Position numbers and translations under genes: made by a program. DNA of 38,192 nucleotides from a virus: positions 1 through 38,192 of IMG/VR virus record IMGVR_UViG_3300044911_000938; one strand, written 5' to 3'. Of the stretch, positions 5,838 to 26,826 are shown one piece after another (the first letter of the stretch is position 1; each line of letters begins with the position of its first letter). The notes beneath the pieces were generated by a model. The model was not told the DNA's origin. It searched no databases and saw only the letters and a list, made by a program, of their open reading frames with translations.

Positions 5838-6026
5838 ATGAACAAAACAACCACTCACGGCGGCCCGCGCAAAGGCGCGGGCCGTCCGAAAGGCAAGAAG
5901 AACGCTAACGCCAAAGGCAGGACTGCCGTTACGCGCTCTGTCTCCATGCCGGCCGAGGTATGGCGGGATTTCGATATTCAGCGAGGAACGATGAGCAGAG
6001 GGAAGTTTATCGCGTCCATACTTTGA
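5838..6026 (+). CDS. Small basic protein with AT-hook-like start
   Basis: A 62-residue protein beginning MNKTTTHGGPRKGAGRPKGK. GPRKGAGRPKG is like the Gly-Arg-Pro core of AT-hook DNA-binding peptides and is widely seen at the start of small phage proteins between terminase and portal. The second half (VTRSVSMPAEVWRDFD...GKFIASIL) resembles a ribbon-helix-helix strand and helix. A DNA-binding role is inferred. The leader CTAACCAAAT is A/C-rich with no Shine-Dalgarno. Its stop codon lies inside the TTGACA element of the next gene. Confidence 0.65.
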   Translation: MNKTTTHGGPRKGAGRPKGKKNANAKGRTAVTRSVSMPAEVWRDFDIQRGTMSRGKFIASIL

Positions 6027-6028
6027 CA
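6023..6028 (+). promoter_or_regulatory. TTGACA element, 13 nt before gpW-like start
   Basis: TTGACA followed by 13 nt and the ATG at 6042. The TGA within it is the stop codon of the previous gene. The same hexamer and spacing precede five other structural genes. A -35 box here would put the -10 on top of the start codon, so a translation-related role is likelier. Confidence 0.5.
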
Positions 6029-6041
6029 GCCGCGCCCAAGG

Positions 6042-6290
6042 ATGGCGCTTTCAAAATCCTTTTTCGGTCTCCCGCTTGCAAACTTACAGAGTTTGCAGAC
6101 GCAATTTATCGCGTGCCTTGAGGCAATCGCCGTGGCTGGGGCGAGTTACAGCATAGCCGGGCGATCGTTCACTCGCGCGAATTTGAGCGAGGTCTCGCAA
6201 ACGCTCAAAGAACTTCAGGCTGCGATTGATAACGCCAACGGAACCCGCGTAAAACGCGTCGTCTCCGCATTCCCCACTCAAAGGCCGTAA
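6042..6290 (+). CDS. gpW-like head-tail joining protein
   Basis: An 82-residue protein between terminase and portal, where lambda has gpW. The central SYSIAGRSFTRANLSEVSQT and following LKELQAAIDNANG give the beta-hairpin plus helix pattern of gpW, and length fits (lambda gpW is 68). Family members fill the portal channel after packaging so that DNA stays in and the tail can attach. No Shine-Dalgarno is visible, but a TTGACA element lies 13 nt before the ATG. Confidence 0.7.
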   Translation: MALSKSFFGLPLANLQSLQTQFIACLEAIAVAGASYSIAGRSFTRANLSEVSQTLKELQAAIDNANGTRVKRVVSAFPTQRP

Positions 6291-6292
6291 GT

Positions 6293-8512
6293 ATGGAACA
6301 AGACCTACTTACTCGCGCCTTGGCCGTTGTCGCACCTAAAGCCGCAATGGCTCGCATGATAGCACAAGATCGCCTTCGCAATTTCGGACGATTCGACGCG
6401 GCACTCGAATCCAGCAAACGCGGGATCTCGCGCAACATCGCGGGTGGCGAGGACACGAGCGGCACAGCCGAGCGTTACAAACTCATCCGCGCGGCTCGCG
6501 ATCTTGCCGATAACTTCCCACCCGTCCGATCGTTGCTCCTGAAATTCGCAACCTACGTCTCTGGCCGTCTCTCCTACCAAGCGCGGACAGGCAACAAGGA
6601 TCTCGACGCCCAGGTTGAGCGATACTGGGCTGACTGGTGCAGCAAGTGCGATTTCCTACGGAGGCACGATTTCACCACCCTGCTTCAGCTCGCAGTCATG
6701 GCAATCTTGCGCGATGGCGACTGCGGATTTGTGATCGTCCGAGAAGCTGGCGAACTCCGCTTGCAGAGCGTGGAAGCCGACCGCATCGGCTCGCCTTACA
6801 ACCGCTTGATTGACTCCGACAAATACATCGGCGGAATCATGCTCGATGAATACGGCAGACCGGATAAATATCAAATATACGTTCGGACGATAAACAACCA
6901 ATATCTCGACCCGACCGACATCGACGCTGCTGAGTTTATCCACCTATTCGACGCCACGCGGCTCGACGAATATCGCGGACGCTCCGCATTTGCTACGGCG
7001 CTGAACGCCGCACGCGATTTGCAAGAAGCACTCAAGGCTGAAATCCAAGCGATCAAGTACGCCTCTTACCAGACCGGCGTCATAACCACGGAAAACGGAT
7101 CGGCGGACGCATCCGACTACTTCGAGACCAGCCCACGGAATGACAACGGGCAAACCGAGAAGCTCTCGAATATCGACCCCGGCGCGATCAATTATCTTTC
7201 GCCTGGCGAGAAGATGGAAATGTTCCAGAGCGAGCGCCCGGGCGGAGCGTTCGGCGAGTTCATTCGGCTGGTGCAATCTCACATTTGCATGAGCGTCGGC
7301 TTGCCCTACGGCTTTGCATTTGACGCAGACAAGAGCGGTCCCATGGCTCGCATGGAGGCAGCGATGGCAGAGCGCACGTTTGCGCGTTGGCGCGGGTTGC
7401 TCGAATCGCAATTTCTGAACCGAATCAAAAACATCGTCCTTCTCGACGCCGCTTCCCGTGGGGAGATTGACGACTCTGAATTTTTGCTTGACGGTCGCTG
7501 GTGCTGGCCGGCAAAGGTCTCGATCGATTACGGACGCGAGGCTCAGGCTGACATCGCGCTCTGGAAAGCGGGACTGAAGACAGCCGGTCAGATTTACGCA
7601 GACGCAGGCGAGGACTACGAAGAGGCACTCCGCGCAAGGGCGAAGGAGGCCAACATGATAAAAGAACTCGGGCAGGAATTTGAAATCCAAGCCAGCCGGA
7701 TTTCCGATTCGGTGCCTGAGTCGGCAATCGATATTTCGCCCGAAAATAACGACGTTGCTCCGCTCATCGAAACGATCGGCATCGGCGGAACGGATGCGCT
7801 CTCGGGAATCCTCGCATCACTCGGACGCGGTGAACTTTCACCCGAACAAGTCGGCATCATTCTCCGAACGGTTTTTGGCATGGACGAAGCCAGCGCGAAT
7901 CAGATCACAAACGCAGAGCCAGCCCCCACACCCGCACCGCAACCCGCCGCAGCCTCGCAATTCGAGGACGTCAAAAACAAGCCGACCGACGGCATGGTTG
8001 CCGAAGCAAAAAAGGGATTGGAGTGGCGTACGAAATACAATCGCGGCGGGACGAATGTCGGAGTTGCACGCGCTCGCGACATATCAAACGGGAAGAACCT
8101 CCCCGACGAAACTGTGAAGCGGATGCATAGCTATTTTTCGCGTCACGAAGTTGATAAAAAGGGGCAGGGTTTTCAACCAGGTGAACAGGGTTTCCCGTCT
8201 GCCGGCCGCATTGCATGGGCATTGTGGGGCGGAGACGCCGGCCAGACGTGGGCGGCAGCGAAAGTTCGACGCATCGCCGCAAAGGAAGCTGCAAAGAAAG
8301 GTCTTAATATGACATTGCAACGCGACGCGCACGGACGGGTTGCCAATCTCTCACTCCCAAGCCCGACCGAGTTTGTCATCCCATCCCCTACGGGGGGTGA
8401 GTCTGAAAAAGATTTCGTCTCCCGCTGTATGGCGGATGACACCATGCTCGCAGAATTTCCAGACACAACCGAACGCGCGGCAGTCTGCTACGCACAACTC
8501 AAATCAAAATGA
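6293..8512 (+). CDS. Portal protein, lambda family, with two C-terminal extra domains
   Basis: A 739-residue protein. Residues 1-475 match lambda-type portals: SRNIAGGEDTSGTAERYKLI near the start, the RDGDCGFVIV core, and HICMSVGLPYGFAFDADKSG with MARMEAAMAERTF further on. It forms the dodecameric ring for DNA entry and tail attachment. After a Pro/Ala-rich linker (about 541-555) come two small domains: about 561-670 (GLEWRTKYNRGGTNVGVARA, HEVDKKGQGFQPGEQGFPSA) and about 700-739 (DFVSRCMADDTMLAEFPD...RAAVCYAQLK). Both are known as small units attached to various phage head proteins. They make this portal unusually long, against about 530 residues in lambda. It ends in an ATGA overlap. Confidence 0.9.
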   Translation: MEQDLLTRALAVVAPKAAMARMIAQDRLRNFGRFDAALESSKRGISRNIAGGEDTSGTAERYKLIRAARDLADNFPPVRSLLLKFATYVSGRLSYQARTGNKDLDAQVERYWADWCSKCDFLRRHDFTTLLQLAVMAILRDGDCGFVIVREAGELRLQSVEADRIGSPYNRLIDSDKYIGGIMLDEYGRPDKYQIYVRTINNQYLDPTDIDAAEFIHLFDATRLDEYRGRSAFATALNAARDLQEALKAEIQAIKYASYQTGVITTENGSADASDYFETSPRNDNGQTEKLSNIDPGAINYLSPGEKMEMFQSERPGGAFGEFIRLVQSHICMSVGLPYGFAFDADKSGPMARMEAAMAERTFARWRGLLESQFLNRIKNIVLLDAASRGEIDDSEFLLDGRWCWPAKVSIDYGREAQADIALWKAGLKTAGQIYADAGEDYEEALRARAKEANMIKELGQEFEIQASRISDSVPESAIDISPENNDVAPLIETIGIGGTDALSGILASLGRGELSPEQVGIILRTVFGMDEASANQITNAEPAPTPAPQPAAASQFEDVKNKPTDGMVAEAKKGLEWRTKYNRGGTNVGVARARDISNGKNLPDETVKRMHSYFSRHEVDKKGQGFQPGEQGFPSAGRIAWALWGGDAGQTWAAAKVRRIAAKEAAKKGLNMTLQRDAHGRVANLSLPSPTEFVIPSPTGGESEKDFVSRCMADDTMLAEFPDTTERAAVCYAQLKSK

Positions 8513-8922
8513 TCGTACAAGGCATCGCACTTTCAGCCAAGCAAGCATTTTTGCTAGGCATCCACCAACCGACCGACACCTACAAGATCGCGCTCTACAC
8601 GAGCCGCGCGACGATCGGGCCTGACCTCGCACACTACACCGAGGCCGGCGAGGTCAGCGGTCCCGGGTACGATCGCGGCGGCTACGTGCTCACCGGATTC
8701 AAGAACGGCATGGCAGGGCGCAGCGCCTTTGTCACGTTCAACGATTTGAAGATCGACCGCGCATCATTCACGGCTCACGGCGCGATCATCTACAACGCAT
8801 CGAAGAACAACGCCGTGATTTGCGCGCTGAATTTCGGAGCCGACCGACCCGTTTTCGACGGCGCTTTTGAAATCAAGTTCCCGACCCCTACGGAAAAAAA
8901 TGCGTTGATTTTACTCGCTTAA
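8509..8922 (+). CDS. Conserved phage structural-type protein, unknown role
   Basis: A 137-residue, mostly beta protein starting MIVQGIALSAKQAFLLGIHQ. The pattern HQPTDTYKIALYTSRATIGP, then GEVSGPGYDRGGYVLTGF and FTAHGAIIYNASKNNAVICA, is a recurring phage family often beside tail fibre or glycine-rich genes. Function is not established; decoration or fibre assembly is a guess from context. It overlaps the portal stop by ATGA and is followed 4 bp later by the polyglycine gene. Confidence 0.65.
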   Translation: MIVQGIALSAKQAFLLGIHQPTDTYKIALYTSRATIGPDLAHYTEAGEVSGPGYDRGGYVLTGFKNGMAGRSAFVTFNDLKIDRASFTAHGAIIYNASKNNAVICALNFGADRPVFDGAFEIKFPTPTEKNALILLA

Positions 8923-8926
8923 AAAC

Positions 8927-9769: not shown

Positions 9770-9770
9770 A

Positions 9771-9941: not shown

Positions 9942-9944
9942 AAT

Positions 9945-10523: not shown

Positions 10524-10527
10524 TCGC

Positions 10528-11004: not shown

Positions 11005-11098
11005 TTTTGCCGGTGGAGCATCGAGGGCGGTGCGCCACTAAGTCGTAGCTTGGGGCGGGCGAGAGGCGTTGAGTATCGACGCCGCTACCCTTACTTGA

Positions 11099-11118
11099 CG
11101 CGGGCAACCGCGCTTTTT
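11099..11118 (+). terminator. Rho-independent terminator with GNRA loop
   Basis: CGCGG-GCAA-CCGCG, then C and five T (11114-11118). The GCAA tetraloop makes the short GC stem very stable. It would end transcripts from the portal/adhesin block before the protease gene. Confidence 0.65.
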
Positions 11119-11220
11119 CGAGGAAGCGCATCAAGCCACCGAGCGACCTGGACTCCATCGGCACCCTCTTATCATACCCGCCGCGCCTCTTGACAATGCG
11201 TAATTCGGCGGGGCTTTCTT

Positions 11221-11226
11221 TTGACA
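11221..11226 (+). promoter_or_regulatory. TTGACA element, 13 nt before protease start
   Basis: TTGACA, 13 nt, then the ATG at 11240. It has the same spacing as at the gpW-like, connector, tail tube, tape measure and fibre genes. A second TTGACA at 11190 lies 31 bases further upstream. Confidence 0.5.
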
Positions 11227-11239
11227 TCGCCGCCTCGGC

Positions 11240-12088
11240 ATGAGCGACGTCATCGAAGCAGTCTCCATCATCTCAGTCGGCGAGGCCAAGGGCCACGGAC
11301 TCTACGTGGACGCGCAAACATTGCGAGAAGTCAAGGCATGCGCGGAGACCTACGCGGGCGGAGTCAAAGTCAATTTGGACCACGGTGCGGGCATCAAAGA
11401 CATCATCGGCTTTGTCGATAACTTCCGCATCGTTGGCGAAAAACTCCTCGGAGATTTAAACCTCCTGCAAAACGCAGACCGGCGCGCATACGTTTTGGAA
11501 ATCGCCGAAAAACTTCCCGACACATTCGGCATCTCGATCGCATTCAGCGGTCCAGTGCGCGAAATCGGAGGCAAGTGTTTTGCGTCGTGTGAGGAGCTTT
11601 ACTCTGCCGACCTCGTGCAGACCCCGGCAGCAAATCCCACCGGGCTTTTCAGTTTCGAAGTGAAGTCAGTTGACAAAATTTCCAAGCAAATGGAAGACGC
11701 ACCCGAAATCGAAATCGAACCCAAGGAAGACGAAGTAAGCATCGCCGACCTCCTCTCCCGACTCAGCGCCCTTGAATCCGCCTTTGGCGATTACAAGAAG
11801 GCGATGGAAGCCGCTCCCGAAGAGCCAAAGGAAGAGGCTCCGAAGGACTCTGAAATGGCCAAACTCGAAGCAAAGCTCGACACCATCATTTCCAACTTTG
11901 GCGCGGCTCCCATGAAGGGATCCGCTCCCGCTGAAGTCCCCGCCGAAGTCAAATTTGATTTCAAGAAATTGATCGAAGACAAAACCGCTGAACTCGGTTC
12001 TAAGACTGCCGCGATCAAATTTGCGATGTCGAATCACCCCGCTGAATACATCGCCCTTCGCGACTCCAATCAACTCAACAACCTCTAA
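11240..12088 (+). CDS. Prohead protease with C-terminal scaffold region
   Basis: A 282-residue protein. Residues 1-140 are protease-like: a candidate catalytic His48 in VNLDHG, a candidate Ser99 in FGISIAFSG, and LYSADLVQTPAANP (120-133), the strand pattern seen near the end of the domain in phage head maturation proteases. Residues 150-282 are acidic and helical (LLSRLSALESAFGDYKKA), as expected of a scaffold. So one gene gives protease plus scaffold, as lambda C/Nu3 does. It would build the prohead and then cut scaffold and capsid proteins. It starts after a TTGACA element and is followed by decoration and capsid genes. Confidence 0.78.
   Translation: MSDVIEAVSIISVGEAKGHGLYVDAQTLREVKACAETYAGGVKVNLDHGAGIKDIIGFVDNFRIVGEKLLGDLNLLQNADRRAYVLEIAEKLPDTFGISIAFSGPVREIGGKCFASCEELYSADLVQTPAANPTGLFSFEVKSVDKISKQMEDAPEIEIEPKEDEVSIADLLSRLSALESAFGDYKKAMEAAPEEPKEEAPKDSEMAKLEAKLDTIISNFGAAPMKGSAPAEVPAEVKFDFKKLIEDKTAELGSKTAAIKFAMSNHPAEYIALRDSNQLNNL
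11670..11675 (+). promoter_or_regulatory. Internal TTGACA element before nested scaffold start
   Basis: TTGACA followed by 14 nt and an in-frame ATG at 11690, inside the protease gene. It is one base longer than the 13-nt spacing of the other sites. It falls exactly at the join between the protease and scaffold parts, which supports its use as a start signal. Confidence 0.4.
11690..12088 (+). CDS. Nested scaffold protein from internal start (inferred)
   Basis: An in-frame start at Met151 of the protease gene would give a 132-residue acidic, largely helical protein: an acidic segment (EIEIEPKEDEV), a coiled-coil-like part (LSRLSALESAFGDYKKAMEA), a Pro/Glu linker and a basic-helical C-terminus (VKFDFKKLIEDKTAELG) likely to touch the capsid protein. 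Lambda makes its scaffold Nu3 in the same way from inside C. The start is supported by the domain border and by TTGACA 14 nt before it. Production as a separate protein is an inference. Confidence 0.5.
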   Translation: MEDAPEIEIEPKEDEVSIADLLSRLSALESAFGDYKKAMEAAPEEPKEEAPKDSEMAKLEAKLDTIISNFGAAPMKGSAPAEVPAEVKFDFKKLIEDKTAELGSKTAAIKFAMSNHPAEYIALRDSNQLNNL

Positions 12089-13464: not shown

Positions 13465-13494
13465 AAACCCGCTCTCACAAGGAGCGGGTTTTTT
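13465..13494 (+). terminator. Rho-independent terminator after major capsid gene
   Basis: A perfect 10-bp stem AAACCCGCTC / GAGCGGGTTT with a 7-base loop (13475-13481) and a run of T through 13494. It closes the head operon before the glycosyltransferase cassette. Confidence 0.9.
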
Positions 13495-13503: not shown

Positions 13504-13509
13504 TTGACA
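13504..13509 (+). promoter_or_regulatory. TTGACA element before glycosyltransferase gene (longer spacing)
   Basis: TTGACA followed by 19 nt and the ATG at 13529. The hexamer and downstream bases (TTTTGACATCG) match the protease-gene site, but the spacing is 6 nt longer than the 13 nt seen elsewhere. It may be a degenerate member of the set. Confidence 0.3.
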
Positions 13510-13528
13510 TCGCTCCCTTGGCAGAAAC

Positions 13529-15202
13529 ATGAACCAAAAAAATCGCCTTGTCGCAGGCTTAATTTGCGGCAACGAAGCCGAGCACATCGAGCGGTGCGTC
13601 CGATCCTTGCAAAAAATCTGCGATGATGTCGTCATCATCCGCGCCGTCGGAGCACTCGAACCCGACGCAACTCTCGACATCGCAAAGAGCCTCGGCTGTC
13701 ACGTCGGAGAATATCGCAACTCACCACTCTGTCGGCATTGGCCGCACCTCGACGACTTCGCTGCCGCGCGCAATGTGGCATTTGAAAAGGCCTACGATCT
13801 GACCGGCGAAGGCGGCTGGGTCATGTGGGCAGACTGTGACGACGTGCTCCAGGACAACATGGTTGAGCCTACGTTGAAGGCGCTCTGCGATTGCCCGGCA
13901 GAGTGTGACTGGATACTCAGCGACTACGTCATCCCTGAGCAGCACAAGCGCGCGCCACGCGAGCGGTTCTTTCGCTACCGCACCGGATACTGGTGGCGGG
14001 CGGTGCATGAAAACGTCCACCCGACAAAGACAATCAAAATTTACATGCGGCGTGACTTGGAAATCCATCACATGCCGCCACTAGGCCAGCGCAAGAGCAA
14101 CGAGCGCAACCAGCGAATCTTGGAATGGCAGGATCAATTCGCCCCGCATTGGAAGTTTTATCTGCACTACGAAAAAATGATCACCGGCCAGCGCGACCTC
14201 GCCTTGCGATACGGGGCCGAGGCTCTCGCAATGAAAGATTTCGACCTCGTGAACAAATACGAGACGCTGATGAATATGAGCAACATGACGGACGGTGCAT
14301 CCGCTCTGCGCTTTGCTCAGGCCGCGCGCAAGCTCGACCCCGCACGCCGCGAGGCGGTCGCGCTTGAGGCTTCCATCCTTCTTGACGACGGCAAGCCGGA
14401 AGAGGCTCTCACGCTCCTCGACGAAATGGAGAAAATTCCCGTCCCCGCTTTCACACAATGGACGCACAAGGCCGAGTACTATGGCGTCAAAGCCAAGCGA
14501 CTCCGCGCTTGGGCGCTCAGGCTGGCAGGCCGAAAGGAAGAGGCATTCAATCTCGAAATGCAGGTTCTCAACGCCGCTCCGCGCCCGCGCATTTCGCTCC
14601 TTCACGCCACGCGCGGAAGGCCGTTGCAAGCAGTTCAAAACATGAACCTGTGGCTCTCACGCGCAAACAAGCCGGAGCGCGTAGAACACATCTTTGCGGT
14701 CGATTCAGACGACGCCTCCGCAGCCGTCCTACAACGATTCTGCGGAGTCTGCCAAGAGACGGACGGCGGATCAGTCGGAGCGTGGAATCTGGCGGCTAGT
14801 GTGAGCACCGGCGACATCCTCGTGCAATTCTCAGACGATTTTGAGTGCCCGCCTGGATGGGACGATATGATTGAAAACCGCTTGGACATTAATGCCGAGA
14901 AGGTTCTCCGCATATCGGACGGCTACCGCACCGACGAACTCCTGCCGATGGCAATTTGCACGCGAAAATTCTATGACAAACACGGACTCTTTCACCCCGA
15001 TTTCAAAAACCAATTCTCAGATGCAGAGTTCACCGTTTGTGCCGAGAAAGCAGGCGCGATTGTGGACGCTCGCGACATTGTTTTCGTTCATCACCATCCG
15101 GCTTTTGAGCCAATCCCCATTGACGCCACGCATGCACGGTGCAATGATCCGCAAGAGCGCGAACGCGCGAAGCAGATATTCGAAACACTAACCAAAAAAT
15201 GA
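13529..15202 (+). CDS. Two-domain glycosyltransferase with TPR-like linker
   Basis: A 557-residue protein. Residues 6-200 are a GT2 family domain (LVAGLICGNEAEHIERCVRS; DXD-type metal site WADCDD near 100-105). Residues 215-345 are helical repeats with TPR character (ASILLDDGKPEEALTLLDEM). From about 351 a second transferase-like domain begins with RISLLHATRGRP and continues with GAWNLAASVSTGDILVQFSD, DDFECPPGW. That second domain is clearly related to the first domain of the gene at 15462. It would transfer sugars from nucleotide-sugar donors, most likely onto virion proteins or the host surface; the acceptor is unknown. ATGA overlap with the next gene. Confidence 0.8.
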   Translation: MNQKNRLVAGLICGNEAEHIERCVRSLQKICDDVVIIRAVGALEPDATLDIAKSLGCHVGEYRNSPLCRHWPHLDDFAAARNVAFEKAYDLTGEGGWVMWADCDDVLQDNMVEPTLKALCDCPAECDWILSDYVIPEQHKRAPRERFFRYRTGYWWRAVHENVHPTKTIKIYMRRDLEIHHMPPLGQRKSNERNQRILEWQDQFAPHWKFYLHYEKMITGQRDLALRYGAEALAMKDFDLVNKYETLMNMSNMTDGASALRFAQAARKLDPARREAVALEASILLDDGKPEEALTLLDEMEKIPVPAFTQWTHKAEYYGVKAKRLRAWALRLAGRKEEAFNLEMQVLNAAPRPRISLLHATRGRPLQAVQNMNLWLSRANKPERVEHIFAVDSDDASAAVLQRFCGVCQETDGGSVGAWNLAASVSTGDILVQFSDDFECPPGWDDMIENRLDINAEKVLRISDGYRTDELLPMAICTRKFYDKHGLFHPDFKNQFSDAEFTVCAEKAGAIVDARDIVFVHHHPAFEPIPIDATHARCNDPQERERAKQIFETLTKK

Positions 15203-15465: not shown

Positions 15466-16619
15466 AAAAAATCAGCCTGCTACACGCAACCCGAAACACA
15501 CCCTACCGCGCCATCGCCACGAAAAACACGTGGCTTCAGCGAGCGACAAACCCCGAGAACGTCGAACATATTTTTGGCATTCAGTCGAATGACATTGAGT
15601 CCTATTCGAAATTTCAAATTTACGCGCTCAGCGTCCCGCCGCCCGACTGGGCATCGTCGAGCGTTGCAAACTGGAACGCCGCAGCCGCAATCTCATCCGG
15701 CGACATCCTTGTCGTCATTGCCGACGACCTCACGCCGCCGCAGGGATGGGATGAGGAACTTCAAAAGCTTCCCGCTGGCACAGAGGAATGGGCATGTTAC
15801 GTGCCAGACTCGCTCCGAGACGACGGCCTCATGTGCCATCCCGTCCTCTCTCGGGCGCTCTACAATAAGCGAGGATACGTTTTCCATCCGTCATACTACG
15901 GGGTTTTCTGTGACAATGATTTCACGACTCGCACACTGCTGGAAGCCCATGTTCTTCAGGTCAAAGGATTGAAATGGCAGCACGATCACCCGATGAACGG
16001 AACGCGCCCGACCGACGCCATCGTTGATCTTCAAAACTCCGAACGTGCCTACCAATACGGGGTCAACAAATTCGTGGAACATTGGCCGCTCATTAACATA
16101 TTCAACCGCTCACGATCCATCGCCGGCGACATCAACGAACACATGCTCCGCCTTGCACAGCTCGCGCGGCAATGCAATCACGTCACCGAGTTTGGAGTTC
16201 GAACTGGGATGTCCACGTATTCATTCCTCCACGGGCTTTCAAACAAGCCAAACACGAAGCTCCGCAGCTACGATCTTCACGACTTTTTCAACGTGCACGG
16301 CATCAGTTCGCAGCTTGCAATCGACTGGACTTTTCAGCAGGGCAGCACACTCGACGCCGAAACGATCGAACCGACCGACTTGCTTTTTATCGACACGTTA
16401 CACACCTACGCACAGGTCAAAGGCGAACTCGAAAAGCACGGCAACCAGGCGCGCAAATACATCGTCTTCCACGACACGGTTGCTTTCGGCGTTCTCGGTG
16501 AAGACAACGGAACCGGAATCAACCTTGCGATCCAAGAGTTCCTACGCGACAACGAACACTGGCGTATCGCGGAGGATTACGAGAACTGCAACGGCCTAAC
16601 CGTCCTCGCCCGCAAATGA
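15462..16619 (+). CDS. Glycosyltransferase-SAM methyltransferase fusion
   Basis: A 385-residue bifunctional protein. Residues 1-170 repeat the C-terminal domain of the 13529 gene: KISLLHATRNTPYRAIATKN, VEHIFGIQSND, VANWNAAAAISSGDILVVIA and ADDLTPPQGW. The second part (about 225-385) is a class I methyltransferase of the Methyltransf_24 type: SAM-binding VTEFGVRTGMSTYSF near 241-255, then LFIDTLHTYAQVKGEL and FHDTVAFG. Such enzymes often methylate sugars, so one protein could add and then cap a sugar. Partner, acceptor and donor are unknown. ATGA overlaps on both sides place it in one translation unit. Confidence 0.78.
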   Translation: MKKISLLHATRNTPYRAIATKNTWLQRATNPENVEHIFGIQSNDIESYSKFQIYALSVPPPDWASSSVANWNAAAAISSGDILVVIADDLTPPQGWDEELQKLPAGTEEWACYVPDSLRDDGLMCHPVLSRALYNKRGYVFHPSYYGVFCDNDFTTRTLLEAHVLQVKGLKWQHDHPMNGTRPTDAIVDLQNSERAYQYGVNKFVEHWPLINIFNRSRSIAGDINEHMLRLAQLARQCNHVTEFGVRTGMSTYSFLHGLSNKPNTKLRSYDLHDFFNVHGISSQLAIDWTFQQGSTLDAETIEPTDLLFIDTLHTYAQVKGELEKHGNQARKYIVFHDTVAFGVLGEDNGTGINLAIQEFLRDNEHWRIAEDYENCNGLTVLARK

Positions 16620-17314
16620 GTACCGTCACACATTCAGTCTGGATCGGGCCGCGACTCGGCCTCATGGAAAAACTCACACTCCAGCTTTTACTCGACACCG
16701 GACACAAGCCGATTCTCTGGACTAACCAAAAAGTTGCTGGCGTTCCCGACTTGGTTGAAGTGCGCCAAGTGCCGAAAGACTACGTTCAGCCCATCGGATT
16801 TGCTGGACATCCGCATGCTGGAATTCCGAACGGAGGCATTGGATCGTTTGCACACTGGAGCGACTACTTCGCATTCAAAACCCTGAACGAGCACGGCGGG
16901 ATATGGGTGCAGATGGATGTCGCCGTCACGAAAAAGATCACCGCTACGGACTACACATTCACGCCGTGGCTTTCGATGGTCTCACCTGTTGTCATGTCAA
17001 TCCCGAAAGGCTCATTCTACGCCGCTCAGATGGCTGAAATCATCGGCGGCATGCTCAAAGACGGCATGGCAGGCCACGATTGGCACGAGGCAATGCTGGC
17101 AATGATTAACACGCTCCAACGAAGCGGGATTCAATACAGCACGTTTGCCAATTACTTCGATTGCGGCGGCGTGGAAGGCTCGCCATACACGCATCCGGTG
17201 GCGACGCCTTACGACATCATTCACTGGTCGAACGCAACGCACAACACAAGCAAGGAGACGCCAACGCGGGGCGGTGAGTATCACCGACTGTGCAAGAGCG
17301 TGGGGCTGATTTGA
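16616..17314 (+). CDS. GT32-like glycosyltransferase (DXD-region variant)
   Basis: A 232-residue protein with the pattern of the Gly_transf_sug/GT32 family: a start VTHSVWIGPRLGLMEKLTLQ, then HWSDYFAFKTLNEHGGIWVQ and MDVAVTKKI. In family members this last part is usually YGGIYLDTDV, where the two Asp of DXD bind metal and sugar nucleotide. Here the site reads QMD, so the first Asp is replaced by Gln and activity may be altered. The middle has an Asp-Trp-His motif (GHDWHEAML). It closes the sugar cassette, and its stop codon lies within the TTGACG element of the connector gene. Confidence 0.7.
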   Translation: MSTVTHSVWIGPRLGLMEKLTLQLLLDTGHKPILWTNQKVAGVPDLVEVRQVPKDYVQPIGFAGHPHAGIPNGGIGSFAHWSDYFAFKTLNEHGGIWVQMDVAVTKKITATDYTFTPWLSMVSPVVMSIPKGSFYAAQMAEIIGGMLKDGMAGHDWHEAMLAMINTLQRSGIQYSTFANYFDCGGVEGSPYTHPVATPYDIIHWSNATHNTSKETPTRGGEYHRLCKSVGLI

Positions 17315-17316
17315 CG
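17311..17316 (+). promoter_or_regulatory. TTGACG element, 13 nt before connector GTG start
   Basis: TTGACG, 13 nt, then GTG at 17330. This case supports GTG as the real start. The TGA within it is the stop codon of the transferase gene, so termination and re-initiation occur within 20 bases. Confidence 0.5.
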
Positions 17317-17329
17317 AAACTGGCAGAGT

Positions 17330-17638
17330 GTGAGCCTCGCCACTTATTTCGCTGCCGATTTTGCTGCCGTCCTCGGGGAACTGCCGATCACTGTAACATT
17401 TCAAGGCTCCACATTCTCCGCGAACCGCTCAACATTTCGGTGCGAAAATAGCGTGGAAGACGGTGGCTTCATGACGCAAATCGCAATGGTACTCACAGCG
17501 CCTTACAACGCAACAACGCAGCAAATCAACTTAGGTGACATCGTAACGATTGACTCTGCCAACTTCCGTGTCGTCTCTGCGGAGCTGGCACAGGATGCCG
17601 TTTCCGTGGATTTTGCGCTCCAGGATGTGAACAAATGA
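17330..17638 (+). CDS. Head-tail connector / head closure protein
   Basis: A 102-residue beta-rich protein (ITVTFQGSTFSANRSTFRCE, later NLGDIVTIDSANFRVVSAEL) in the place where tailed phages have their head-closure or stopper protein, directly before a tail-completion-like gene. The GTG start is chosen because it lies 13 nt after TTGACG and gives the natural N-terminus SLATYFAADF. Role: to link portal/adaptor ring to tail. The sequence-level evidence for the precise family is modest. Confidence 0.6.
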   Translation: MSLATYFAADFAAVLGELPITVTFQGSTFSANRSTFRCENSVEDGGFMTQIAMVLTAPYNATTQQINLGDIVTIDSANFRVVSAELAQDAVSVDFALQDVNK

Positions 17639-18473: not shown

Positions 18474-18479
18474 TTGACA
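18474..18479 (+). promoter_or_regulatory. TTGACA element, 13 nt before tail tube start
   Basis: TTGACA, 13 nt, then ATG 18493. It favours this ATG over the TTG nine bases upstream. Confidence 0.5.
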
Positions 18480-18492
18480 ATTTTTGCGGGAT

Positions 18493-18864
18493 ATGCCCGC
18501 ATCCGTCATTACCTCATCCGCTGCCGCAAACGTTTCTTTCGGCATTACCGCCGAAACCGGCATCATCCTCTCCACTTTCACCCGATCCGTCCAAGGCCAA
18601 AAGGCCGAACTCATGGACGAAGACGGCGACATCGTTGCGATCTCAACCTATGGACGCACCGCGACCATTTCGCTTGCAGGCGCGATCAACGGAACATCTG
18701 GCATCGCCACAGCCTCAGTCGGCGGTCTCTTGACTATCGCCAACGCAACAACTGAATTTGGCGTAACCGGTGGCCGCATCGTTGTCGATTCGGTTAGCTC
18801 CGAATTTGGCGCTGACAAATTCCGCACAATCACCGTTCAGGCCACGCAGTACCCAAGCCTCTAA
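18493..18864 (+). CDS. Tail tube-like protein (small)
   Basis: A 123-residue beta-rich protein (VITSSAAANVSFGITAETGI, GDIVAISTYGRTATISLAGA, KFRTITVQATQYPSL) placed between tail completion and chaperone genes, where the tail tube gene lies in siphophages. The closing FRTITVQATQYPSL resembles the last strands of tube-type domains. It is shorter than most tube proteins (usually 140-250), so a related minor tail protein is possible. It starts at ATG 18493 after a TTGACA element and is followed by a terminator. Confidence 0.55.
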   Translation: MPASVITSSAAANVSFGITAETGIILSTFTRSVQGQKAELMDEDGDIVAISTYGRTATISLAGAINGTSGIATASVGGLLTIANATTEFGVTGGRIVVDSVSSEFGADKFRTITVQATQYPSL

Positions 18865-18936: not shown

Positions 18937-18941
18937 AAAAT

Positions 18942-19998: not shown

Positions 19999-20770
19999 AT
20001 TCGACAAACAGAAGTTCGTGGAAATTCTCGACGAGTATTCCAAGATCGTCGAAAAATCCATTCCCGATTGCGTGGCTCTCAATGCTCGCCTGCTTTGCGT
20101 GGAGCTTGCGAGGCGGACTCAGCCATTCGGAACGAAGCCTGAAAGCGGAATTGGCCGCGTAGAAAAAGATATCGGCAAGATCATCAAGACGGATCAAAAA
20201 CTTGACGAAATGGTTGCCGCAGTCTCGACCAAAAAAATCCGGAATCGCTTGGAAACTCTGGTGAAACAAAAGCGTTACGATGCCATCAAGATCGTTCTGG
20301 AGAAGATTGGATTTTTAAAAAAGTGGGGCGAGCTTGAAGTAACAAGCGACTTTAAAACCATCCACCAAGCGCATCGCGATCCGCGAGACGGGCGCACGCG
20401 AAATAGGGGCGACAAGCTCTACATTGCCGAAGGAGATTTGACTGGCTACATCGAAGGCGTTGCCGAGCACGTCGGTATCGCAAAGTCTGGCTGGGCGCGT
20501 TGCGCGGAGCAGCTTCCGCGAGTCATAAGCGGGAAGATGACGCGTGGGATTCCCGACTGGGTTGTAGACCAGACAAAGGCGACCGGCGAAATAGAAAACC
20601 ACCTTGGGGATACATCGAACCCGCGCGTGCTGATGACAAACAAAGTGCCGTGGCTTAGTCGCATTTGCCCGCCTGAGCAACAGCTCAAAGCATCTCAGGT
20701 TGTAGTCGCAAAAATGAAAAAGCAGATAGAGAAGATTTTGAAGAAGCGACAGACGACTTTGACGGAATGA
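19991..20770 (+). CDS. Minor tail or virion protein, unknown
   Basis: A 259-residue, Lys-rich, mostly helical protein between the chaperones and the tape measure. The first third is helical (FVEILDEYSKIVEKSIPDCV, LNARLLCVELARRT), the middle has EVTSDFKTIHQAHRDPRDGR and WARCAEQLPRVISGK, and the C-terminus is a basic helix (KMKKQIEKILKKRQTT). No family is recognised. The start ATG at 19991 overlaps the frameshift product by eight bases. Confidence 0.55.
   Translation: MFKFDKQKFVEILDEYSKIVEKSIPDCVALNARLLCVELARRTQPFGTKPESGIGRVEKDIGKIIKTDQKLDEMVAAVSTKKIRNRLETLVKQKRYDAIKIVLEKIGFLKKWGELEVTSDFKTIHQAHRDPRDGRTRNRGDKLYIAEGDLTGYIEGVAEHVGIAKSGWARCAEQLPRVISGKMTRGIPDWVVDQTKATGEIENHLGDTSNPRVLMTNKVPWLSRICPPEQQLKASQVVVAKMKKQIEKILKKRQTTLTE
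20759..20764 (+). promoter_or_regulatory. TTGACG element, 13 nt before tape measure start
   Basis: TTGACG, 13 nt, then ATG 20778. It lies inside the last codons of the previous gene. Confidence 0.5.
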
Positions 20771-20777
20771 CCCATAT

Positions 20778-23258
20778 ATGGCTGACGTAACAGTTGAGTT
20801 TGGAGCAAAGGACGCGGGACTCTCGCAGACGTTGAAGAACGTCCAAAAGGAACTCGCTGACCTCGATACGCAGCAAAAGAAAACGGCTATGTCCGCCGAT
20901 GAGTTTCAGCGGTCGCTAAGCCGGACGAAACAGCTTGAGGGAATGGAAAAAAAGCTGCGATCAATGAGCGATGCAACATCGAATCTTGGAGGGTTTTTCG
21001 ATTCTTCTTTTGCAAAAATCACAGGCGCATTCACGCTTGGAAATATCGCCGCCGATGGATTTAACAAGGCGATCAACCTTGCATTCAGCGGAGCGCAATC
21101 GGTGGCTCGGGGATTTGGTGACGCGCTTGATCTTGGCGGACGGCTTACGGATCTAAGCGCACGAACGGGCGAGGCAGCAGGCAAGTTGCTTGTATTGGAA
21201 ACGGCTTTCAAAAATTCAGGACTCGGAGCCGAGATGGTAGGAACCGTCATAAATAAGCTGCAAAACTTCATGCAGGATGCGGCCAACGGCGGAGACAAAC
21301 AAGCCACCGCAATGACCGACCTGGGGATTTCGTTGGCAGAACTCAAAGGCAAGACGCCAACCGAGCAGATGAAGATTTTCGCCGACAAGATCGCGGCGAT
21401 TGAAGATCCTACACAGCGAGCAGCGATGGCTTCCGAAGTATTCGGTGAAAAACTTGGCGGCAAGTTGCTCCCACTTCTTATGAGCTTTTCACCGGCGATT
21501 GACGATGCTCGTGGAAAAGTGGGATCGATGGAGCGCGTGATGAACGAAAACGCCGCAACGTTCGACGCGGCTGGAGAAAAGATTGACGCTGTAAAGGGAA
21601 AAATGGCCGCATTTGCCGCAGGTATTTTGAGCGAGGTCATTCCTGCCGTGGACGGCTTGGGGACCAGCATGGAGAATGTTGACGCCGCTGGATTGGGACA
21701 AGAAATAGGATCGTCTCTTAATCCCATTCTTGAAGAATCGCAAAAAAAATTAAGCGAGCTAATAAAAGAATATCGTGAATATGCAATAGTTACATCGGCA
21801 GCTGCAAGGGGCGACGCAGAAACGGCAAATTCAACCGGAAAGGCTACCGGAGCCTTGGATCTTTTGGGTGTAATGGTCAAATCTGTAGTCGGTCCTCTCC
21901 ACGACCTTGTCACTGGTACGACGACATACATCGACGAATCCAATCGCTTGGCTGAAAGTGCAAAAAAAGCAGGTTTAAGCGTTACTGATTTTGTTACTCT
22001 CACTCAGGCAGGGGTGCAAAAAATCGCAGACTTAGGTGCAAACTCGCAAAAAGTCGCCGAAAAAATTGGCGAGCTTGGGGAAAAAGCAAAAGAAACAGGC
22101 GCGGAAATCGGATCGGCCTTTTCTTTAAGCTCAGACTTCAAGCCTGCCATAGACGGGATCAGCTCTGCCTGGTCGAATTTCAACAGCGAGATAACTGGCA
22201 CCACGCCGTTGCTGGAAAGCAACTACTCACTCAGCGAATCTATCGCCGGAAAAATTGACGAGCAAACTCAGGGAATCGGAGACTTAAACAAGCAACTCGA
22301 CGTTTCCAAGAGCCTCGAAGAGCAAATCAAAAACATCAAAACCGTCCGCTTGGAAAAGGAAAAAGAATCCGCAGACAAGGAACGCGAACGCCAATCGGAA
22401 CTCCGCGCAAGTCTGGATCTTGATCTTGAAATTTTAAAAGCTCAAATCAGCGGGAATGAACAAGAGAAAAAAGCGGTGCAGTACAAAAAAGACTACAACG
22501 CCGCCTTAAAACAAGCCATCGACGCAGGCATGGGGCAACCGCAAGCGAAATCATTTGCCGATGAAATTGCACGCGCCCGACAAGAACAAGCGGGGATGAA
22601 TAAAGAGCTCTCAACCTCTGCCAGCCTCCTTAAAGGCATCGCCCAAGCAGAATCGCAGCAACGCGTTGACCCCGGTGGGAAGTTGCAACAAAAGGCGCAA
22701 CAGCAGGTTCAGAAAAATCAATTTGTCGCAGCCAAGAGGACAGCGGAGCAGATACGATTCAAAGAACTGGAAACCAGTTTGCGATACGGTGGTCCGAAAG
22801 AATTTCAGAACTCTGGGGGAAGAGATAGTCGAGACATAGGGGACATCGGGAAGTCATACGGTGTGCGACAAGCCGGAGACTCAACTTCTGATTTCATGGA
22901 GCGAATCAAGCGCGTCAGAGAAGGATTGGACACGGTTGATAAATTCGGGCGCAATATCCGAGAGGGCGAAAAAATAAGTCGCGAAGACCCATTTGCTAAA
23001 TACAAGGATTTGAAAACCGGCAAAGAATTAACCAAAGAACAAAAAGATGCGATGAAACGGGAGGAAAAAGACAAGAAACTCAAAGATGAATTCGGCAAAG
23101 ACGCAAAGGCAAAAATGGATCAACCCGGCAAAGACGGCAAAAAAGAAGACGGAAAAAAAGAACAGAAGGAAGACAAGATGGCAAACCTAGTGGAAAAGAT
23201 TGAAAAATTGGTCGAAAAAATCGAAAAGAAACTGCCACAGCAGGCGCTCGCATACTAA
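20778..23258 (+). CDS. Tape measure protein
   Basis: An 826-residue protein, the longest gene, after the chaperones. The N-terminus (DVTVEFGAKDAGLSQTLKNV) and long coiled coils (residues 10-70 and 500-640) are typical. Near 75-125 is a small-residue-rich segment (ITGAFTLGNIAADGFNKAIN) that may be membrane-active, and the middle has ATAMTDLGISLAELKGKTPT, common in tape measures. The end is an extreme Lys/Glu region closing with a helical VEKIEKLVEKIEKKLPQQ. By the rule of about 0.15 nm per residue the tail would be about 120 nm. It sets tail length and may help pass DNA into the cell. Confidence 0.92.
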   Translation: MADVTVEFGAKDAGLSQTLKNVQKELADLDTQQKKTAMSADEFQRSLSRTKQLEGMEKKLRSMSDATSNLGGFFDSSFAKITGAFTLGNIAADGFNKAINLAFSGAQSVARGFGDALDLGGRLTDLSARTGEAAGKLLVLETAFKNSGLGAEMVGTVINKLQNFMQDAANGGDKQATAMTDLGISLAELKGKTPTEQMKIFADKIAAIEDPTQRAAMASEVFGEKLGGKLLPLLMSFSPAIDDARGKVGSMERVMNENAATFDAAGEKIDAVKGKMAAFAAGILSEVIPAVDGLGTSMENVDAAGLGQEIGSSLNPILEESQKKLSELIKEYREYAIVTSAAARGDAETANSTGKATGALDLLGVMVKSVVGPLHDLVTGTTTYIDESNRLAESAKKAGLSVTDFVTLTQAGVQKIADLGANSQKVAEKIGELGEKAKETGAEIGSAFSLSSDFKPAIDGISSAWSNFNSEITGTTPLLESNYSLSESIAGKIDEQTQGIGDLNKQLDVSKSLEEQIKNIKTVRLEKEKESADKERERQSELRASLDLDLEILKAQISGNEQEKKAVQYKKDYNAALKQAIDAGMGQPQAKSFADEIARARQEQAGMNKELSTSASLLKGIAQAESQQRVDPGGKLQQKAQQQVQKNQFVAAKRTAEQIRFKELETSLRYGGPKEFQNSGGRDSRDIGDIGKSYGVRQAGDSTSDFMERIKRVREGLDTVDKFGRNIREGEKISREDPFAKYKDLKTGKELTKEQKDAMKREEKDKKLKDEFGKDAKAKMDQPGKDGKKEDGKKEQKEDKMANLVEKIEKLVEKIEKKLPQQALAY

Positions 23259-23259
23259 A

Positions 23260-23961
23260 ATGGCCTACACATATCACGGAACTAGCAACCTCGTAATGGC
23301 TCCAGGGAGGTCGGTGCAGACCTTCCCGAGCGGCCTCGTTCGCGTTGAGCGCAGCTACACTTGTCGCAAAGCGGATGCCGCCCGATACCGCGCAGATTTG
23401 GCCGTGGGCAACGTATTGCCGGGCGATGATGGAACGCCGGCACTCGACGGCGTTTACATCTTCCCAGAGCCTATGGAGCTTGCGCGGGAAGACGGGTTCA
23501 CGGAGTTCCGTGTTACAGCTTATGGGCGGTCGAATGTTTTTGCAGACAACGCAATTTCCCGCTCCTCGGTGCTTTCAACCTACGTGCGATCCATCTGGAA
23601 TGGCACCCGTGGAACCGGAGCAAGTGCCGTGGACACGGCAGGCGCATTCGTTAATTCTGAGAGCCCATCGCTGAACGAAACATTCACGTTGACCGGCGTA
23701 TTGCCATCCAACGAGTCTGCCACGTCTCTTTTGACGCCGCCGAACATTTCGAATCCGCTTGTGATTCCGATTGCACAAGACGGATCGGCGTATAAGCCGC
23801 TGAAGCCAGGAGTAATTGATTATCCGTCCAGAAGCTCATTCTGGTACCGTGACACCACGATCATTTATTTGACTCTCGAAACATTTGCTTCGAAACCTTT
23901 CGGCGCATGGTCCGAGTACACGGTTGTATGGAAGGCTCAAGGTACCGTGGTCACTTTCTAA
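23260..23961 (+). CDS. Tail tip region protein, unknown
   Basis: A 233-residue beta-rich protein straight after the tape measure gene, where distal tail or tip proteins lie. Start at ATG 23260 (a longer frame from 23200 would run through the tape measure end). Features: MAYTYHGTSNLVMAPGRSVQ, FPSGLVRVERSYTCRKADA, and GAWSEYTVVWKAQGTVVTF at the end. I infer a tail tip or hub role from position alone. Confidence 0.55.
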   Translation: MAYTYHGTSNLVMAPGRSVQTFPSGLVRVERSYTCRKADAARYRADLAVGNVLPGDDGTPALDGVYIFPEPMELAREDGFTEFRVTAYGRSNVFADNAISRSSVLSTYVRSIWNGTRGTGASAVDTAGAFVNSESPSLNETFTLTGVLPSNESATSLLTPPNISNPLVIPIAQDGSAYKPLKPGVIDYPSRSSFWYRDTTIIYLTLETFASKPFGAWSEYTVVWKAQGTVVTF

Positions 23962-23964
23962 GTT

Positions 23965-24240
23965 ATGGATTTCAACCCGCCAGTCGATTTTCAGGAAAAG
24001 GCGCAAGGTCCAAAAGGAACAACCAATGCAGACTATCCGTATGCCCTGAAGGCGACCGACCTGATGAAGGACTTTGTTTTTGCCACGTTGATTCTCGAAG
24101 ACGGACTAGCGGAAGAGACAACCGGCAAGAACGGACACACGCAGCGCAAGCTCAAAATTCCAAGCCCGCCGACATCGGGCACGCACGTGCTCAGCGTGCA
24201 GGATGGAACTTTTGCGTGGCTTGAAACCGAGGAGTGCTGA
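23965..24240 (+). CDS. Small tail-region protein, unknown
   Basis: A 91-residue acidic protein three bases after the previous stop. DFNPPVDFQEKAQGPKG at the start, a helix-strand region KATDLMKDFVFATLILEDGL, and the close HVLSVQDGTFAWLETEEC, which resembles the short end modules of phage fibre-associated proteins. No family is recognised. Its last codons contain the GAGGAG site for the next gene. Confidence 0.5.
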   Translation: MDFNPPVDFQEKAQGPKGTTNADYPYALKATDLMKDFVFATLILEDGLAEETTGKNGHTQRKLKIPSPPTSGTHVLSVQDGTFAWLETEEC

Positions 24241-24241
24241 C

Positions 24242-24943
24242 ATGATCATCGGGCGCACGGCGGAAAACAAAATCAAGATCAAGACTGACGAGCCGCTTGG
24301 ACTGCGGGCGGTTGAATGTGCATGTTGCAACCCGTGCGGGTATGATGCCTTTATTGAAGAGGAGGGTGGGGGATTTAAAAAGTACCGGTATCAAAAAATT
24401 ACCGTATCAGGCACTCGTTTTGTTTCTAGTCCATTCTCGTGCCCGGAAACGGAAGAATATGGCGACACTCAAAAAACCATAGAATCAACATTTACATACG
24501 ACTGTCAAAAATTTGGCTTGGAATCAAATTGCGGATCTGGAATTACGGGGGCTTACGGGTATGTAACCGATGTTTTTGAGGGGCTGACATACTCTGGCGA
24601 TTTGGGGATGCTTTTTTCTTTCAATTTTCGCACAGATTATCAAGGCGCAACTCCTGACGGATGCTTGGCTCATTTTACGGGGACTTATGAAAATTTTGCT
24701 GGCACTGGAGAAATAGACATTCTGGTTGACGCTTATGCGCCACAGTGGTTCGGAGGACTGCCATGCATTGAAAGCGATGGTGAATCCGTTGCAACGACAA
24801 TCACGAAAACAAAAAAAATCTGTGTTACAACATATTCAGATTTTACATCAACCTGCCCAGATGATGCTCCATTGCCTATTTTTCAAAGCGGAACGGCAAC
24901 GTACACAATCGAACTTTCAAATACTCCATTCGATGGTCCTTAA
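24242..24943 (+). CDS. Cysteine-rich tail-region protein, AT-rich gene
   Basis: A 233-residue protein from ATG 24242, chosen because GAGGAG lies 8-13 bases upstream. It has many Cys, starting with ECACCNPCGYDAF near residue 25 and then spaced singles (SPFSCPE, YDCQKF, SNCGSG, DGCLAH, LPCIES, KICVTT, STCPDD), likely forming disulfides or metal sites outside the cell. Base composition from about 24,380 to 24,940 is visibly more A/T-rich than neighbours, hinting at recent arrival. Function unknown; receptor-facing tip protein is a guess. Confidence 0.55.
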   Translation: MIIGRTAENKIKIKTDEPLGLRAVECACCNPCGYDAFIEEEGGGFKKYRYQKITVSGTRFVSSPFSCPETEEYGDTQKTIESTFTYDCQKFGLESNCGSGITGAYGYVTDVFEGLTYSGDLGMLFSFNFRTDYQGATPDGCLAHFTGTYENFAGTGEIDILVDAYAPQWFGGLPCIESDGESVATTITKTKKICVTTYSDFTSTCPDDAPLPIFQSGTATYTIELSNTPFDGP

Positions 24944-25196
24944 ATGCACAGACGCCGACTCATCCGAGTTATGCCGAAAAGCGATCAGCTTTGCAAGATC
25001 CCTGACATCGTGGAGCTCGAGCGGATTTCAAGCCACGCCGCCTGACATCCTCGCAACCCGCGAGGCAACGTGCCGAGAATGTCCGGAGTGGGATGCTACC
25101 GCTTTAAACAAAACCGGAAAGTGCCGAAAATGCGGATGCTCGACGTGGGCAAAGCTCCGCATGGCAACCGAGAAGTGTCCGCTGGAAAAATGGTAA
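24933..25196 (+). CDS. Small zinc-ribbon protein
   Basis: An 87-residue protein starting at ATG 24933, overlapping the Cys-rich gene by 11 bases. The second half has CRECPEW, then CRKCGCSTWAKLRMATEKCP: two CxxC pairs and a closing Cys-Pro. Small ribbons ending ATEKCP-x-x-KW recur in phage tail gene blocks, but the role is unknown. The N-terminus (TDADSSELCRKAISFARSLT) is a helix. Confidence 0.6.
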   Translation: MVLKCTDADSSELCRKAISFARSLTSWSSSGFQATPPDILATREATCRECPEWDATALNKTGKCRKCGCSTWAKLRMATEKCPLEKW

Positions 25197-25199
25197 TTG

Positions 25200-25205
25200 T
25201 TGACA
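25200..25205 (+). promoter_or_regulatory. TTGACA element, 13 nt before fibre gene start
   Basis: TTGACA, 13 nt, then ATG 25219, in the 22-bp gap after the zinc-ribbon gene. A GCAGG two bases closer than a classic Shine-Dalgarno also lies before the ATG. Confidence 0.5.
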
Positions 25206-25218
25206 ATCTCCGCAGGTA

Positions 25219-26826
25219 ATGGCACGCGACCTTTTCATCGACCTGACAAACAACCGGCTCGCTACGAGTGAGACTAACCTGGCGCCGGCCGGAACCGTCC
25301 GCCTCACCAAAGGCGATACAGGAACTTTCAACCTTTACTTTTTACAGGCGACCGGCGTCGTCAATGCGCCTTTCTCCGTTGTCGATAAATCGGCATCCAG
25401 CGTGAAATTCGGCGTTGGCTCACGCACAGCGACACCGGAGACGGGAACCTACACGCTCACGTTCGGCGGCAATACCACGACCGCGCTTGACGCAGCGGTA
25501 ACAGCCGGACAGGTACAGACCGCGCTCAATGCGCTCACAGCGATTTCCAGCGCAGGCGGAGTGACCGTGACCGGCGAAGTCGCCGAGCATTTCACCGTTC
25601 GATTTGTGACCGCTGGCACGCAAGGCAGCATCACCGCAGACGTCTCGCAGCTCATCCCCGATACTGTCGCCGTCATCGGCGAGCGCGTAGTCGGCAGCGC
25701 GAGCGCGAAGGAGGTTCAAGAAATTCAACTCCGCCTCACGCCAGCCGTTTACCAATCGACTTGGACCAACCTTTCCACCGCTGTCACTGCGACGCTCGCT
25801 ACCACCGTGACCGGCTCCGCAACGAATAACGAGGTTCAGCGCCTTTCATTTTCGCAAAAACCTTTCGCCGGCACGTACCGCCTGACCACGCCAAGCTCCT
25901 CGATCACGATTGGCTCGCTTGTCACGGCGGGCGTCTTCATCGCTCCCGAAAACCCCGGACTTGCGCTCAATCAACCCGTAACGCTCACAGGGTTTTCCGC
26001 GCTGACCGGCTACTCAAACGGAACCACGTACTTCGTAAAAACAATTCCGGATTCAAATCAATTCACAGTTTCCGTTACTGCCGGCGGCGTTGCACTGACC
26101 GGCACAGCTACGACCGGCAGCGTATTAACAACGCTCAGGCAGACTGCTCCGCTGGACGCTGATGCAACCGCTGACGACATCGCCACGGCACTTGCGGCGC
26201 TGGATTCGATCGGCGCGAACAACGTCACCGTCTCAGGCGTACAAGGCGAGTATTACGATATCGTTTTTTCCGGCAATAAAGGCTTTGCCGACTTGCCAGT
26301 GATGACTATTCAAAGCGGGTTGACCGCCAAACCCGGCAAGACTGCGGATGTAAATTTTGCCACGTATGCCCTGCGGGATTTGGTGGGCAACGAAGAGCGC
26401 ATCGATCTGGATTTGGAAATTGAACTCACTGAAGGCGGAACACGGCAGACCGTGATTTTAAGTCCTTGCTCAGTCTCCGAAGAACTCATCGATGCGGATG
26501 CGTTCTCACCCGTTCCTCAATTCTCGCTGCCGATCAACTCCGTTGCAGTCACAGCCTACACGCTCGCGCTCTCCGACGCCTACGGGCTCATCAACGCGAC
26601 CACCGGCATGACGATCACCGTCCCGCCAAACTCGACTACTCCATTCCCGACCGGCTCGCAGGTGCTACTCTACCGCTCCGCAGTGAGCGGCGTGGCTGTG
26701 ACAGCGGGCGCAGGCGTCACGATCAATGCGGCTGGCGCTGCCAGCAACCTTTCGAGCCAGCACAGCGTGGCCTCGCTCATGAAACTGGGCACCGATAACT
26801 GGGTATTCGCAGGCGACATTTTCTAA
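25219..26826 (+). CDS. Tail fibre/baseplate protein with repeated beta modules
   Basis: A 535-residue Thr/Ala/Val-rich beta protein. An N-terminal part (DLFIDLTNNRLATSETNLAP, RLTKGDTGTFNLYFLQATG) resembles virion attachment domains of siphophage fibres. Two related modules follow: GTYTLTFGGNTTTALDA with VQTALNALTAISSAGGVTVT (about 74-135), and TYRLTTPSSSITIG with IATALAALDSIGANNVTVSG (about 217-350). The end (TTGMTITVPPNSTTPFPTGS, VAVTAGAGVTINAAG, NWVFAGDIF) is a widespread phage fibre C-terminal domain. It likely helps host binding at the tail tip. Confidence 0.72.
   Translation: MARDLFIDLTNNRLATSETNLAPAGTVRLTKGDTGTFNLYFLQATGVVNAPFSVVDKSASSVKFGVGSRTATPETGTYTLTFGGNTTTALDAAVTAGQVQTALNALTAISSAGGVTVTGEVAEHFTVRFVTAGTQGSITADVSQLIPDTVAVIGERVVGSASAKEVQEIQLRLTPAVYQSTWTNLSTAVTATLATTVTGSATNNEVQRLSFSQKPFAGTYRLTTPSSSITIGSLVTAGVFIAPENPGLALNQPVTLTGFSALTGYSNGTTYFVKTIPDSNQFTVSVTAGGVALTGTATTGSVLTTLRQTAPLDADATADDIATALAALDSIGANNVTVSGVQGEYYDIVFSGNKGFADLPVMTIQSGLTAKPGKTADVNFATYALRDLVGNEERIDLDLEIELTEGGTRQTVILSPCSVSEELIDADAFSPVPQFSLPINSVAVTAYTLALSDAYGLINATTGMTITVPPNSTTPFPTGSQVLLYRSAVSGVAVTAGAGVTINAAGAASNLSSQHSVASLMKLGTDNWVFAGDIF

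Follow-up and report, generated by a model that had tools for sequence, protein, structure and literature searches.

A TTGACR element before virion genes, a candidate late promoter of Verrucomicrobia-type phages

The sequence analysed here, referred to as the window, is the entire IMG/VR record IMGVR_UViG_3300044911_000938, a viral stretch of 38,192 nucleotides (nt). An initial annotation of this DNA reported the hexamer TTGACR exactly 13 nt before the start codons of six structural genes and read it as a translation-start signal or a late-gene control element specific to the phage and its host. Following up on this observation, we find TTGACA or TTGACG about 19 bases 5′ of virion gene starts in the window phage and in more than 100 related virus contigs, and suggest that the element may act as a late promoter read by a phage-encoded helix-turn-helix (HTH) protein. 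The host of the window phage probably belongs to the Verrucomicrobiota, judging from its relatives: searching the phage collection with the terminase led to Verrucomicrobia phage P8625, and a scan of genomes detected relatives in an Opitutae bin, in Akkermansia and in Omnitrophota. A search for the host through prophages of the window clade returned no match.

Element sites in the window

All sites described here lie on the forward strand of the window, and orthologs were compared among 80 relatives collected via the portal protein; these loci partly overlap, so that distinct sequences are fewer than loci. The first site (6023-6036, TTGACA-N7-C) precedes the gene for a gpW-like head-tail adaptor (6042-6290), and TTGAC is found at position -19, -20 or -21 in 81 of 81 orthologs (45 distinct sequences). 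Two copies belong to the protease locus, one at 11221-11234 before the protease gene itself (11240-12088; 61/61 orthologs, 32 distinct) and one at 11670-11683 before an in-frame nested start at 11690 with a spacing of 14 nt (57/57 orthologs, all at -20; 30 distinct). This conserved internal start opens a nested scaffold-like frame, 11690-12088, comparable to lambda C/Nu3, where a scaffold is likewise nested in the protease gene. Further downstream, a glycosyltransferase-like gene (13529-15202) carries the element at 13504-13517 with a spacing of 19 nt (34/34 orthologs at -23 to -25; 18 distinct), and TTGACG at 17311-17324 stands before 17330-17638, a gene with a GTG start (21/25 orthologs, 14 distinct). 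The tail-tube-like gene (18493-18864) is preceded by the copy at 18474-18487 (13/13 orthologs, 11 distinct), the tape-measure gene (20778-23258) by TTGACG at 20759-20772 (7/11 orthologs, 7 distinct), and the gene of a fibre or other virion protein (25219-26826) by the copy at 25200-25213 (10/10 orthologs, 8 distinct). A ninth family, represented by the gene at 16616, has the hexamer at 8 of 15 orthologous starts (4 distinct). All six sites of the initial annotation are therefore present, and the link it drew to late and virion genes holds; six is nevertheless too low a count, as the copies before 11690 and 13529 had been missed.

Placement of the hexamer is far from random, as had been claimed. 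Exactly 19 nt separate TTGACR from a listed start for 6 of the 32 forward copies, against a random mean of 0.046 and a maximum of 2 in 20,000 trials, and 18-25 nt do so for 8 of the 32 (random mean 0.35, maximum 5). The string TTGACR-N13-RTG occurs 8 times in the window where 1.6 are expected; two of these matches (15120 and 24726) are not 5′ of any accepted gene start. The 5-mer most enriched upstream of window starts is TTGAC itself (9 observed, 1.28 expected, p 5e-6).

Conservation and internal spacing

The element is kept in nine gene families although their flanks diverge. Among the relatives, the gap between hexamer and start codon ranges from 12 to 19 nt, equal to 18-25 nt from the first T, and every one of the nine window-clade families has an invariant C at offset 13 from that T (TTGACR-N7-C). 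Because the distance to the start varies and the C does not, the fixed spacing lies inside the element. A strict 13-nt spacing thus describes the six window sites but had to be rejected as a rule: related phages conserve the hexamer, not its exact distance. No further conserved position was found within 80 nt upstream of the starts in window-clade orthologs.

Counting distinct sites 18-26 nt before starts on the coding and the opposite strand gave 61 and 1 in the window clade, 83 and 4 in a gut clade, and 10 and 0 in a marine clade. The comparison sets gave 2 and 1 (P8625-like clade) and 20 and 16 (random viral loci). These strand counts bear on the idea that the hexamers are accidental or reflect shared coding sequence, which could be entertained since some sites overlap upstream coding sequence. 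Together with the placement statistics in the window and the retention of the element in intergenic and coding contexts alike, next to differing neighbours, they refute it.

Distribution across phage clades and hosts

The short arrangement recurs at gpW and protease genes in the marine sister group. The gut and environmental clade that carries the element takes in Akkermansia prophages, and in one such prophage it stands before genes for the small terminase, a scaffold-like protein, the tube and others, the tube gene being a homolog of window 18493-18864. Across 67 related viral loci, the distribution of distances has one peak at 19 nt and another at 22 nt. One prophage-carrying Akkermansia genome contains only 9 strict pattern matches, 3 of them on the prophage contig, and in other Akkermansia genomes pattern matches were not located before genes; a host-wide signal was rejected on these scans. 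The element is accordingly not special to one phage and its host, as three related phage clades have it and the Akkermansia host genes examined do not. A motif-pattern search for further phages returned mostly chance matches.

P8625 and its relatives present a different picture. Here TTGACA lies 33-43 nt before starts and is followed after 17 nt by a -10-like hexamer; these promoters end about 7 nt 5′ of the homologous gpW and fibre gene starts, and the P8625 homolog of window gene 25219-26826 has a sigma70-type promoter at its start. To judge by sequence, the same genes are served in the P8625-like clade by ordinary TTGACA-N17-(-10) promoters that reach the start codon, which indicates that promoters at such starts are normal for the group.

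The comparison also raises the question of whether the window hexamers are ordinary host sigma70 -35 boxes with an overlooked -10. The hexamer does equal the -35 consensus of sigma70-type promoters, and in P8625-like phages it functions in just this arrangement, by its spacing. At the window sites, however, a -10 placed 16-18 nt downstream would hit or pass the start codon, none is conserved there, and the starts themselves are fixed by conserved N-termini. This explanation is very unlikely, and the earlier judgement that the element offers no usable -35 box stands.

Several P8625-type late promoters (L089 at 5412, 10736 and 15558; L306) overlap a palindrome, GTATCC...GGATAC, which is probably a phage operator. 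In the marine clade, palindromes of the form GGTGTATTRCACC occur at L181:66, at about 8350 in L182 and at L166:899, the one at L181:66 accompanied by a consensus TTGACA-N16-TATAAT promoter.

A signal in DNA or in RNA

In some relatives, a small structured RNA lies 5′ of gpW, flanked by two copies of the element. In 23 of 24 such loci the element, CTTTTGACATATC..., precedes this RNA, and no start codon follows at the usual distance; one subtype shows an ATG at offset 15 that opens a short frame only. The 3′ end of the RNA is a hairpin with paired base changes followed by a T-run, after which come the second element copy and gpW. At about 100 nt and with its covarying terminator hairpin, the RNA appears to be new (loci L438-L457, L054, L067, L070, L072 and L105), and the loci tested gave no Rfam match. 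A single signal shared by start codons and a non-coding RNA is most simply explained by action at the DNA level, a view also favoured by a marine-clade copy whose start is 45 nt away.

Ribosome-binding sites are depleted at the genes concerned. Shine-Dalgarno motifs occur at 1% of element genes and 19% of other genes in the gut clade (12% after shuffling), and at 3% and 15%, respectively, in the window clade; some gut-clade regulator genes have a good Shine-Dalgarno sequence. By inspection, TTGACR is not complementary to the anti-Shine-Dalgarno CCTCC, so that the earlier statement that it is no Shine-Dalgarno site was correct.

These data are relevant for the proposal that UUGACR acts in the RNA, 12-19 nt upstream of the start, where a phage protein or the ribosome would bind it in place of a Shine-Dalgarno sequence. 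The narrow range of distances, the near absence of Shine-Dalgarno motifs, the lack of a visible -10 and the element at the in-frame start inside the protease gene, a place at which lambda-like phages initiate translation internally, would all suit such a signal. It is harder to reconcile with the element before the start-less structured RNA, the marine copy at 45 nt, a co-occurring protein of DNA-binding type and Akkermansia host genes that do not use the element. We regard it as unlikely, chiefly because of the non-coding RNA and the flexible start distance. Of the two functions first put forward, late-gene control is thus the better half. A conserved hairpin between hexamer and start was also considered and dropped, as it is found only at some 19-nt gut sites, where position-specific composition is a possible cause, and is absent from the 22-nt class.

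A candidate reader

The proposed reader is P0001, a 144-residue HTH protein encoded on the forward strand at 37176-37610 and singled out by profile searches and co-occurrence. When profiles of the window genes were compared with the gut clade, matches comprised structural and lysis genes, the ATPase at 35288 (weak) and 37176-37610, which makes the latter the sole regulator-like window gene common to both; a match of 37579 was marginal. Iterated profile searches found HTH homologs in the marine, gut and Akkermansia clades, and P8625-like phages yielded none; of 119 random loci, just two matched, both belonging to marine-type phages. Whole records of at least 33 kb with the element have the homolog in 9 of 10 cases (the exception being G032, 33 kb), element-free whole records in 0 of 4; four of the whole-record matches (E 4e-35 to 7e-44) lie outside the query alignment. 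No named phage with the protein was found in the phage collection.

The candidate regulator gene is thus conserved together with the element, as expected of a late regulator. In late-regulator systems such as RinA/Ltr and T4, the regulator sits at the end of the early genes beside the first late gene, and several gut-clade phages follow this order, the end of the HTH gene adjoining the first late gene. The window copy is the penultimate gene, near the contig end; on a circular genome the packaging genes would come after it. Some window-clade phages have a promoter of the TTGACA-N17-TAAGAA type at the HTH gene itself, consistent with early expression of a regulator of late genes. The best match of the HTH profile in the PDB is RpoD region 4 (E 5e-4), and one family member passes the Pfam cut-off for Sigma70_r4; the window protein alone gives weak generic HTH matches only. 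TTGACA is the sequence read by sigma region 4.

A possible late promoter class

From the observed sites, their conservation and clade distribution, their occurrence before a non-coding RNA and the co-occurring HTH protein, we propose, with a probability of roughly 0.55, that the element is a late promoter of Verrucomicrobia-type phages read by the phage HTH protein. The core of this promoter class would be TTGACR with the start codon 12-19 nt downstream. Acting as DNA, it would direct transcription to begin at or a few nt before the start codon, yielding late mRNAs that are leaderless or nearly so, which could explain why Shine-Dalgarno sites are almost missing. Since a -10 would have no room, host sigma70 would not use the hexamer as a -35 box; instead, the small sigma-region-4-like protein of 37176-37610 would bind it, and RNA polymerase would presumably melt the DNA without a visible -10.

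Several observations weigh against this reading. The chief difficulty is that neither a conserved -10 nor an AT-rich melting region was found at element sites, and that the nucleotides separating hexamer and start are GC-rich both in gut-clade phages and at the protease gene. Phages of the gut clade do not conserve the C that is invariant in the window clade, and the confinement of starts to a narrow distance range is what a translation signal would also give. The structured-RNA cassettes all come from a single clade and are close relatives of one another, hence weakly independent. Five element-bearing records have no HTH homolog, one of 33 kb and the rest fragments of 18-26 kb. Similarity of the HTH protein to sigma region 4 is modest, and a fold search with its structure model (predicted local distance difference test score, pLDDT, 73) placed the plasmid repressor KorA first and sigma domains lower, none of them significant; a first model, built from a clade-only alignment, had been too poor and was discarded. 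An intrinsic-terminator-like hairpin at 13465-13491 (forward strand), behind the major capsid gene, ends 12 nt 5′ of the element of 13529 and is found in 13 of 18 distinct ortholog sequences, but such adjacency was rejected as proof of a promoter because terminators also abut element-free starts in P8625 and at window 18942, where a terminator-like hairpin with T-run lies just 5′ of a conserved start.

Some of these points would suit an operator, a pausing or antitermination site, or an RNA-processing site, at which HTH binding represses, pauses or modifies transcription or the RNA is cut. Terminators do occur in the late region or ahead of it, at several genes right next to the element, no -10 is seen, and the best fold match is a repressor. 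On the other hand, the sites keep their position with respect to the start codons of many separate genes, whereas known antitermination of this kind works through a single site, and the related P8625 clade has true promoters, by their sequence, at the same genes. We consider this group of explanations quite unlikely.

A wider formulation of the late-promoter reading is put forward tentatively, with the odds somewhat against it: a stand-alone sigma-region-4-like protein may read a -35-type hexamer in the place of the spacer and -10, with no -10 and with leaderless late mRNAs, in many Verrucomicrobia phages. To our knowledge there is no other example of this geometry, and the open-access papers searched contain no description of the element. 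If the geometry holds, it would call into question whether every sigma-type promoter requires a -10 about 17 bp downstream of the -35, and Verrucomicrobia phages would permit a direct test of leaderless late expression. For an uncultured phage group and its Akkermansia prophage relatives, the analysis provides a readable late-gene code with a named candidate regulator, from which late operons and gene starts become annotatable by sequence.

Comparison with known systems

One parallel is P8625, whose gpW and fibre gene homologs likewise have TTGACA immediately upstream in a near-leaderless layout; it differs in its N17 spacer with a -10-like hexamer and in the position of TTGACA, about 36 nt from the start instead of 19. 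T4 late promoters depend on the sigma-like gp55 with gp33 and a TATAAATA box at -10. They resemble the element as phage-specific single-box late promoters served by phage-coded sigma-like proteins, here a candidate only, and are distinguished by a box at -10 where the window phage has the -35 consensus word.

RinA/Ltr of Staphylococcus phages are late transcriptional regulators that switch on packaging and virion genes (PMC13123087), a role for which the HTH protein is the candidate here. Ltr serves one promoter, with repeats upstream of a TATA-like -10 (PMC13123087), unlike the lone hexamer near the start codon that recurs before many genes with no visible -10. In the giant phage AR9, late promoters have the form AACA-N6-T[A/G], the last base being the start site (PMC5312081). 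Both systems would have a short element near the RNA start, repeated before many late genes; the sequence of the AR9 element differs, and AR9 encodes its own multisubunit RNA polymerase, for which no gene was found in the window.

Further features

An abiF RNA (Rfam RF03085, E 1.6e-7) lies at 11177-11213, in an intergenic insertion 5′ of the protease gene, and was also recognized by eye in L020 and L040. It is a defence-associated RNA, here carried by a phage; as a separate insertion, it was rejected as a part of the protease element. In L042, L070, L081, L443 and others, variable small genes lie 5′ of gpW, each followed by CCGGCGCGGGTTCAATCCCCGCGCC and a T-run, and this hairpin, which resembles a tRNA T-arm, may mark a cassette insertion site. 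Window 1773-3980 encodes a single protein fusing a helicase and a DNA methyltransferase, with no homolog among nine near-complete relatives. The 12-nt direct repeat GGTAACCAAACT is present at both ends of the window (1-12 and 38181-38192), and the record may represent a complete circular genome.
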